From contig CANRJV010000007.1 of NCBI GenBank assembly GCA_947631045.1, positions 1 through 47,063 of the forward strand: DNA of 47,063 bases, in the 5' to 3' direction. Positions 6,528-9,471 of this stretch are shown one piece after another. The stretch's first letter is position 1; every line of letters begins with the position of its first letter. The notes beneath the pieces are model-generated. The model was given only the letters and a program-made list of their open reading frames with translations, made no database searches and was not told the origin of the DNA. This stretch comes from an uncultured Bacilli bacterium (GTDB lineage: Bacteria > Bacillota_I > Bacilli_A > RF39 > UBA660). The position numbers were made by a program, and so were the translations under genes.

Positions 6528-8096
6528 ATGAAAGAAAAATTAAAGAATAAAAAGGTAATAGTAGTAAGTAGTACATTGTTAATAATGACTATAATTGTAT
6601 TATTAGTAATAACATTAAAAGATAGTTATGCCTATTATGGAACAAGTAATGAATTAGAAATAATGAAGGCTACAATAGGAAAGTTAAAACCCACAATAGA
6701 TAAAGTATATATTGAAGAAGAAAATCAATTATATACCAATAATCCAAATCCAAATGTTACAATAACATGGAGTGATGATAATATAACAGAATATTGTGTA
6801 ACAACAGAAAGTGCATGTACAGAATTTAAACTTATAGATTCAAATAGCAAAAGTGTAACAAATCAAATAACATTAACTGGTGAAAAAGAACATACAGTAA
6901 ATGCCTATATAAAAAATAAATATGGATATACATCAGCAGCAGTACAAAGTAGTATAACATTAGATACAACAGCTCCAACAATAAGTAGTGTTACATCAAC
7001 AGAAATAACTGAGACATCAATAACAGTTAATGTAACTGGTAGTGATGCTAATGGTATTAGTCAATATTGTTATAGTACAACAGGTAGTGATTATACTTGT
7101 ACAAATTCTAATACTCATACATTTAATAATTTAAATTCAGGACAACAATACACATTCTATTTTTACTTAATAGATAATGCAGGAAATGATAATAAAGCAA
7201 GTGCAACCCAAAAACAATTTACAACAATATCAAAATCTGCCAAAGATGTAGTAGTTGCCACTTCTAAGAGCCTTGAGTCAGAGGAAGCAATGCAAAAAAG
7301 AAATGATGCTATAAAGGCTGCTGGTGGAAATGTACCAGATGACTTAAGAAGATTTGTCGGAACATATGAAGAAGTAACAGATAACTTTATTTGCTTTGGA
7401 ACAAGTGATCAAAATCAATGTAAACAAAATATGGATACATACATGTATCGAATAATCGGAATAGATACAAGTGGCAGGTTAAAATTAATTAAGGCAACAA
7501 AAATTAATAATAATGGAGAAGCTACGTTTAAATGGCATAATATGTATTCTACTAATACACCTTGGAACGAATCAGACTTATATAAAGGACTAAATGGCAC
7601 GTCAAGCAAATATTTTAAAGGAAATGCAAAATATAGTTATATGCAAAATGCGCAATGGACTAATTTAATATCACCGGCAACATATTATATAGGAGACGCG
7701 CCAGATGGTACAAATCCTAATTTATTTATTAATGAAAGAAAGTCTAATTTCAGTAGTGGAAATATTAGTTTAATGTATTTAAGTGATTACTTATATGCTA
7801 ATAATGGGAATGCGAATACAAGCAATTGGTTATTTATTCAAAATGGCTTAAATAGAGATAATACAAACTTAGGAAATGGAGCATCTGCTCCAATAGCGGA
7901 ATATGAATGGACAATGACCAGGTATGGTTACAACTCCGGCCTTTACCGTGCGTGGCGTGTGGGTAGTAGCGGGACTGTGTACTGCTACAGTTTGGACGGT
8001 ACGTATGCGGTTCGTCCAGTCTTCTATCTGAAGTCAACTACACGGATATCGAATGGAAATGGAACAATTGGAACTCCGTATATAATTGCTCCTTAA
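6528..8096 (+). CDS. Secreted/anchored surface protein copy 1: signal anchor, Ig/FN3-like repeat, C-terminal C-type-lectin-like domain with hypervariable cassette (putative DGR target)
   Basis: N-terminal hydrophobic segment ending DSYAYYG; ITLDTTAPTISSV... FN3-like domain; DDLRRFVG...YMYRIIGIDTSGRLKLIKAT...; terminal TMTRYGYNSG...AVRPVFYLKS; ribosome-binding site AAAGGAG. Confidence 0.85.
   Translation: MKEKLKNKKVIVVSSTLLIMTIIVLLVITLKDSYAYYGTSNELEIMKATIGKLKPTIDKVYIEEENQLYTNNPNPNVTITWSDDNITEYCVTTESACTEFKLIDSNSKSVTNQITLTGEKEHTVNAYIKNKYGYTSAAVQSSITLDTTAPTISSVTSTEITETSITVNVTGSDANGISQYCYSTTGSDYTCTNSNTHTFNNLNSGQQYTFYFYLIDNAGNDNKASATQKQFTTISKSAKDVVVATSKSLESEEAMQKRNDAIKAAGGNVPDDLRRFVGTYEEVTDNFICFGTSDQNQCKQNMDTYMYRIIGIDTSGRLKLIKATKINNNGEATFKWHNMYSTNTPWNESDLYKGLNGTSSKYFKGNAKYSYMQNAQWTNLISPATYYIGDAPDGTNPNLFINERKSNFSSGNISLMYLSDYLYANNGNANTSNWLFIQNGLNRDNTNLGNGASAPIAEYEWTMTRYGYNSGLYRAWRVGSSGTVYCYSLDGTYAVRPVFYLKSTTRISNGNGTIGTPYIIAP
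7923..8027 (+). other. Putative DGR variable repeat VR1 (variable core 7923-8006, invariant 21-nt 3' end 8007-8027)
   Basis: GC-rich patch in AT-rich gene; codon 1/2-only variation against copies 2 and 3; identical flanks in all three genes. Confidence 0.72.
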
Positions 8097-8259
8097 TACC
8101 GGACAGTTTTAAATAAATGAAGAAAATAAAAAGACACGCCAAAAAATTTTTAACTAAAAATATAAAATTAGTATAAACCAATTATATGCCATAGAGAATA
8201 AAGCGAAAAGGATCATACGTAGAAGAATAAAAAGCTAAAATAATAAAGTAAGACCAGTA

Positions 8260-8632
8260 TTAAAAAAGAAAGACTCTAAGTCTAGAACTGTTGATAAACT
8301 TGTGAGTAGTGATTTTAGCATTTTTGTAGCATTTAAAATTTTTATAATATTCAGCGCCTAAGATAGATAAATAAAGAATACCAAAAGAAGCAAGAGAATG
8401 AATATTTTCAAAATATTTTAAGGAAGAATTACAAGTGGATTCTAAATAAAAAGCCATTAGATTTTTGAAATTTAAAAATAGATTCGATGGTACCGAAACG
8501 ATAACCATAATTTTTAATGGCTCTTTTGGGATTAACATTAGTAACAATTAGCCAAGAATCAGAAGTACCATTTCTTTGAGAAATAGCACTTGCAAAATCA
8601 ACTTGAGTATTATATATTAAATTCATAAACAA
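8260..8632 (-). pseudogene. Frameshifted C-terminal remnant of an IS4-like DDE transposase
   Basis: Two overlapping minus-strand ORFs read as one protein: NTQVDFASAISQRNGTSDSWLIVTNVNPKRAIKNYGYRFGTIESIFKFQKSNGF then (frameshift) FYLESTCNSSLKYFENIHSLASFGILYLSILGAEYYKN, resembling the Y-(2)-R-(3)-E-(6)-K region of IS4-type transposases. Confidence 0.6.
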
Positions 8633-8977
8633 CTACTTTTACTTTAATCTAAATAAAATATAATATAGATGGTTGTTTATAAAAAGGAAAATAAAAGGTG
8701 CTTTACAAAAGGAATAAGCATCTTTTTAATTTACTAATAAAAAAGTTCGAGGGTAAGTAATTTAAGAACCGGTTAAAACAATAAATATATAATATAAAGA
8801 AAAGAGATTTCTTATTAAAGGAAGCTCTTTTCTTATACTATTTAGTTAATGTAAATAAATTTAAGAAAGTCGAAATTTGAACTTAATAGTATTTATAATA
8901 TAATAATAAAAGTAATGCAAGAATTTTTATTATCTATTAATGTCAGACATTTTGTGAAATTTTTGTAAAATTTACTG

Positions 8978-9007
8978 TTGCTTTTCATATAATTATTGTG
9001 TTATAAT
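8978..9007 (+). promoter_or_regulatory. Promoter of the S10 operon
   Basis: TTGCTT-N18-TATAAT with extended -10 (TGTTATAAT). Confidence 0.65.
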
Positions 9008-9014
9008 GTTACTC

Positions 9015-9125
9015 GTATGACTGCGAGGATGCGCGAGGTTGCTGATACACTAGGAAGAGTTGGTAAATATCTTTCTTGAGTTACAGGGAATTCGGGTGGA
9101 GCAAGTCTATACTAGATATAGGCGA
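9015..9125 (+). promoter_or_regulatory. 5' leader of the S10 operon, probably an r-protein autoregulatory structured leader
   Basis: GC-rich structured-looking untranslated region (GACTGCGAGGATGCGCGAGGTTGCTGATACACTAGGAAGAGTTGG...GGGTGGAGCAAG) between a promoter and rpsJ. Confidence 0.5.
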
Positions 9126-9141
9126 AAGGAGGACATGGAAA

Positions 9142-9453
9142 ATGTCAAATAGTAAAGTAAGGATTAATTTAAAAGCCTACGATCATCGTTTACTTGATGT
9201 AGCGGCTTCTAAAATAGTCGAAACTGTAAAAAGAACAGGTGGAGAAGTATCTGGTCCAGTACCACTTCCAACAGAAATTGAGAAGTTTACGGTACTAAGG
9301 GCGGTACATAAATACAAAGACTCTCGTGAACAATTTGAAAGAAGAACACATAAGAGACTTGTAGATATCAAAAAACCTAGTAAAGAAACAATTGATGCTT
9401 TAACTCATTTAGATTTACCAAGTGGTGTTGACATCGAAATAAAAACATATTAG
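9142..9453 (+). CDS. rpsJ: 30S ribosomal protein S10 (ORF track start 9076; true start 9142)
   Basis: [42 protein letters not shown] ribosome-binding site. Confidence 0.97.
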
Positions 9454-9471
9454 TAAAGGAAGGAAATTAAA

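Follow-up and report, generated by a model that had tools for sequence, protein, structure and literature searches.

A variable repeat in a probable surface-protein gene of a gut Bacilli bacterium and the multi-template DGR to which it almost certainly belongs

Target genes in the window and the DGR locus on contig C21

The window, that is, the whole 47,063-nucleotide stretch analysed here, constitutes contig C7 of an uncultured Bacilli genome (81 contigs, 1.31 Mb, 93% complete), and it contains three of about 13 scattered genes that carry a variable repeat (VR) of one family (Table 1). The product of target gene 1 begins with an N-terminal hydrophobic segment, continues through an FN3-like middle part (its Pfam fn3 match lies below the cut-off), and ends in a conserved domain whose C-terminal end is occupied by VR1. 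The repeat has a GC content of 55%, against 29% for the remainder of the gene, and the portion shared with the template repeats (TRs) is slightly shorter than the 7911-8036 proposed by the initial annotation. The hydrophobic segment suggests that the protein is exported or anchored, and on this reading of their sequences the targets are probably surface-located proteins.

In this genome the VR-bearing C-terminal region has 37 matches, and other genomes of the genus hold up to 80; not every match carries a VR, and several may fall in one gene. In an alignment of 36 members the hypervariable stretch is preceded by EWTMTR and followed by AVRPVFYL. A model of the target domain (window 7230-8093; 288 residues, pLDDT 95.6) resembles DUF6273 phage proteins, and four family members match PF19789 (DUF6273). 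Foldseek relates the domain to part of an IgA peptidase structure from Thomasclavelia ramosa (9qa6; E 1.4e-5, TM 0.51). Its matches to C-type lectins, whose fold (or else an Ig fold) is expected of a DGR target, are weak (8q4e, for example, with prob 0.72 and E 0.31), and no PDB sequence was matched by a profile of the domain. For a gut genome of such small size, the family of related, probably surface, proteins is large.

When VR1 was used as a DNA query against the whole genome, 19 places were matched. Four of them are non-coding stretches of contig C21, located upstream of a reverse transcriptase (RT) gene that had been found independently through PF00078. A genome with neither an AAY-rich template nor the RT of a diversity-generating retroelement (DGR) would have refuted the initial annotation; contig C21 instead holds four such templates, Avd and the RT. 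On the strength of its IGxxxSQ motif and YxDD active site the enzyme is of the DGR type; the actual motifs, IGNMTSQ and YMDD, are invariant across nine relatives. Its best PDB sequence match is 8ub7, an entry labelled ‘Reverse transcriptase’, which we take to be the RT of the BPP-1 DGR, and its closest named database relatives are uncultured Bacilli from rabbit (Lapin) and goat-rectum metagenomes. The reading frames of RT, Avd and MSL are intact in this genome. MSL (PF01624) has been named, with HRDC, as a known DGR accessory protein (PMC10053308). The small ORF overlapping the end of the RT gene, and its equivalents in relatives, had no match in Pfam, NCBIfam or PHROG. A second RT fragment (C76 141-722, L023) contains an in-frame TGA, matches PF00078 strongly, and is probably another kind of RT.

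Table 1. Features of the window (contig C7) and of the DGR locus (contig C21).
Feature	Contig	Coordinates	Strand	Description
Target gene 1	C7	6528..8096	+	522 aa; ORF, domain family alignment and model
VR1	C7	7920..8027	+	matches template TRc (C21 6489-6595)
IMH-like 3' end of VR1	C7	8010..8027	+	GTTCGTCCAGTCTTCTAT; GTC in VRs vs GCC in templates
Target gene 2	C7	23515..25122	+	535 aa; ORF; domain 63% identical to target 1
VR2	C7	24946..25053	+	third repeat copy in window; no clean template in assembly
Target gene 3	C7	43943..45514	+	523 aa; ORF; domain 72% identical to target 1
VR3	C7	45329..45439	+	matches template TRb (C21 5023-5126)
Target gene with own VR	C21	1633-2862		first in locus order
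TRa	C21	2990-3096		adenine-rich, AAY-rich template repeat
Nuclease gene, PDDEXK_2/Rpn type	C21	between TRa and TRb		two short ORFs from its family come next
TRb	C21	5023-5126		adenine-rich, AAY-rich template repeat
Second nuclease gene	C21	between TRb and TRc		followed by a short one
TRc	C21	6489-6595		adenine-rich, AAY-rich template repeat
TRd	C21	6819-6928		adenine-rich, AAY-rich template repeat
MSL-type gene	C21	7201-7590		MutS domain I, PF01624 above cut-off
Avd	C21	7574-7954		NF033474 E 1e-9 (under curated cut-off); phrog_3206 E 3e-16
DGR-type RT	C21	7923-9065		PF00078 match; IGNMTSQ, YMDD
Small ORF	C21	9034-9354		overlaps RT end; conserved in many DGR loci of relatives

Adenine specificity and the assignment of templates

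The initial annotation compared 17 codons of VR1 and VR3 and noted that 13 of them differ while all third bases are identical. These codons are present as quoted (from 7956 in VR1 and from 45368 in VR3), and the comparison stands: 18 base differences separate the two cores, of which 11 fall at codon position 1 and the other seven at position 2, position 3 being unaffected. The scaffold upstream of the repeat in the same two genes shows 118 differences over 222 aligned codons, 49 of which fall at third positions (Fisher p = 1.6e-4 for the contrast with the repeat core). As the third positions of the scaffold do differ, the pattern between VR1 and VR3 does not reflect ordinary divergence between the two genes.

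Comparison with the real templates bears out the signature of adenine mutagenesis that had been read into VR1. Relative to TRc, VR1 is changed at 20 of 36 A sites and at one of 71 non-A sites (Fisher p = 5e-11); relative to TRb, the corresponding figures for VR3 are 13 of 36 and one of 68 (Fisher p = 2e-6). Within the 17-codon cores there are no non-A changes at all, with 14 of 23 A sites changed in VR1 and 10 of 24 in VR3. The sole non-A difference of each repeat lies near the 3' end, where the TR has C and the VR has T (GCCTTCTAT against GTCTTCTAT), and the base at this position is uniform throughout the genome, being T in 13 of 13 clear VRs and C in four of four TRs. Judged by sequence, this C/T difference is as expected of IMH* in the TR and IMH in the VR.

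If the targets were simply paralogues whose binding surface is under positive selection, without any retroelement, they would likewise form a large paralogous family and concentrate their variation in one segment, as is seen here. Selection on the protein, however, cannot spare all non-A template bases, silent ones included; moreover, the scaffold third positions do change, and templates and an RT are present and predict the variable sites. As the main explanation, positive selection is contradicted by the template match, and we consider it exceedingly improbable. Gene conversion between targets, rather than mutagenic retrohoming, would be another source of variation, and some secondary conversion of this kind would fit the 5' segments of several VRs, where matches are mixed and codon-length differences occur. 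Conversion alone, on the other hand, cannot make new changes limited to template adenines; in view of the 20 A-site changes that separate VR1 from TRc we reject it as the main explanation, and its probability is very small. VR1 is thus almost certainly a variable repeat belonging to a cellular DGR, the core of which is located outside the window, on contig C21.

The template that had been reconstructed from VR1 and VR3 before any template was seen matches TRb at 75 of 78 bases and differs from TRc at four, so that the signature of adenine mutagenesis could be read from two VRs alone. The reconstruction failed in its ATG codon and in its premise of a single template common to both repeats: each VR fits its own, and the assumption of one template led to the ATG call where TRc actually has TTG and TRb has GTG, codons that are kept in VR1 and VR3, respectively. 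Since the templates differ at non-A bases, it can be seen that the targets do not all draw on the same template: TRc supplies the sequence of VR1, and TRb that of VR3.

Other repeats are less clean. VR2 differs from TRb at 18 of 36 A sites and 14 of 68 non-A sites, and an A-confined pattern was obtained for it with no assembled TR; in the ten additional VRs located on other contigs, A sites are changed more than the remaining sites, each repeat having three to eight non-A differences. Such repeats may be older copies, alignments shifted by indels, or products of templates absent from the assembly. For VR2 and several of the remote VRs (3-14 non-A differences), this means either that templates are lacking from the assembly or that updating has ceased for some targets. 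Short-read assembly of such similar repeats could hide or merge templates; the C21 contig runs through all four, and an independent genome (G025) likewise has four.

Structure of the template RNA cassettes

The four TRs are embedded in cassettes that share about 300 bases, comprising a promoter-like box, a leader, the TR, a spacer, and a terminal hairpin; a search of the assembly turned up no further copy of the spacer. TRb, TRc and TRd are each preceded by a promoter-like TTTAAA-18-TATAAT, and TRa by a TATAAT. Promoter-like sites near the cassettes are overall no commoner than in shuffled sequences, and the argument for promoters therefore rests on their fixed position. The leader, GGTAATCTTGA, begins 7-8 bases past the -10 box, and the cassette ends in the hairpin followed by TTATTTTT; the hairpin received no score in a strict terminator scan. 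An Rfam search with the cassettes returned no match. Viewed as a whole, the sequence of each template looks like an RNA gene of its own, with promoter, leader, repeat, structured spacer, and terminal hairpin.

Covariation was assessed on 31 cassettes, aligned with MAFFT on sequence only, and six helices were named on this alignment. Helix 1 joins the leader to AAGATTATC of the spacer, closing over the TR; helix 2 is formed between the IMH* region and the spacer, and helix 3 is a hairpin within it; helix 4 is a small hairpin, and helices 5 and 6 make up the terminal hairpin. Across the 31 cassettes 93.5% of the cells pair, and changes on both sides are found in 35 of 45 pairs. None of 500 shuffles reached any of the five measures, and sliding the structure along the alignment lowers pairing to 43-50%, a control that is biased in favour of the fold because the structure was drawn from the same sequences, the covariation being the stronger evidence. 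Helix 1 by itself contains six pairs with changes on both sides, and it was predicted unprompted in most cassettes by single-sequence folding. The pairing of leader and spacer that closes over the template is hence supported by strong covariation. It may have a counterpart in the BPP-1 RNP structures. The 31 cassettes make a natural data set with which to test the presentation of the template to the enzyme by DGR RNAs. In the open-access literature we found no description of a covarying helix enclosing a TR.

Proposed mechanism, known systems, and relatives

These elements would fit together as follows. Each of the four template RNA genes would be transcribed, probably from its own promoter, and the leader of the RNA would pair with the downstream spacer to close over the template, the spacer presumably recruiting the RT-Avd complex into an RNP. 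The RT would then copy the template with misincorporation opposite adenines, and in retrohoming the mutated cDNA would supplant the homologous repeat that a target gene carries at its 3' end; target and template would be kept distinct by the T-for-C difference at the IMH. In this way an RNA template, copied with errors, would serve to rewrite surface proteins at their tips, and the outcome would be proteins, probably displayed at the surface, with a randomised face for ligand binding on a conserved scaffold. At least a dozen members of the family would be rewritten by a single retroelement drawing on several templates, and the four putative, separate template RNA genes can be matched to different surface proteins, two of them in the window.

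That the C21 system belongs among the DGRs is clear, and multi-target, multi-template, and trans-acting DGRs have already been described. With the DGR of the Bordetella phage BPP-1 (bRT, Avd, TR, VR) it shares the RT family, Avd, A-specific changes from TR to VR, and the IMH/IMH* difference, as well as a structured spacer downstream of the TR (PMC12875486). BPP-1, however, has a single target and a single TR, which lies between avd and the RT gene, whereas here four TR cassettes, apparently separate transcription units, lie upstream of MSL-Avd-RT, and the targets are scattered over a cellular genome. The cellular DGR of Treponema denticola has several remote surface-protein targets, with seven VRs per genome (PMC4891356), but one TR per genome in place of four. 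Stenotrophomonas sp. SKA14, with two TRs and six VRs, likewise uses more than one template for several targets; the account available does not present each TR as an RNA gene standing apart, with a promoter and a spacer to itself, nor does it assign targets to single templates by fixed non-A bases (PMC6642488). In Thiohalocapsa PB-PSB1 targets are diversified in trans from a template elsewhere in the genome (PMC10907252), but that genome has nine loci of four classes with mostly conflict-system targets, in contrast to the single DGR RT, the putative surface proteins, and the 1.3 Mb genome described here. Separate transcription of RT and TR RNAs was suggested as probable from a DGR survey (PMC3521204). 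Within the open-access literature we found neither a system of the C21 type described among the DGRs of rabbit-gut Bacilli or Tenericutes, nor separate template RNA genes that serve one RT with targets assignable per template.

The module of TR cassette, MSL, Avd and RT is conserved in about 25 loci of relatives, and with nucleotide profiles the cassette was detected at most DGR loci of this genus and its close relatives, four cassettes being present in G025 and two each in G003, G008, G014 and G023. A genus-wide reading, about which we are evenly divided, is that DGR templates have become a family of stand-alone RNA genes (each having a promoter, TR-enclosing helix, spacer, and terminator to itself) that have been duplicated and have diverged, such that several separate programmes of diversification, each directed at another subset of a large surface-protein family, are run by one RT-Avd machine.

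The system evidently decays in parts of the genus, as the RT gene of G017 (there C21 1240-5779, L078) is split by an insert of about 3.4 kb, and those of G006, G019 and G026 (L075, L077, L046) contain frameshifts or stops. In G033 (72% complete) no DGR RT was found, yet there are 44 target-domain matches. The interrupted genes, together with the non-A differences accumulated in many VRs of the present genome, would be compatible with a genuine but fossil DGR, inactive now in this strain. Against this, the frames of RT, Avd and MSL are intact here, the structure of the template RNA is maintained, and the cores of VR1 and VR3 are free of non-A change (outside the cores only the IMH difference is found), which indicates recent rewriting; a fossil system is thus unlikely.

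Target genes, too, come and go: the closest relative, G023, has the same ribosomal operon as the window in the 6528-9470 region (L3 96% identical), and a search beside that operon (C11, L194) for an orthologue of VR1 found no target gene there. The VRs of G023 fit its two assembled templates poorly (4-23 non-A differences), probably because its template set is incomplete or the automatic alignments are poor, and they were left out of the support for A-specificity. A minor observation concerns the PDDEXK_2/Rpn-type nuclease genes, which lie between or beside TR cassettes, often with short C-terminal duplicates (C21 3335-6434; L063-L067, L070), and which may have helped to duplicate the cassettes.
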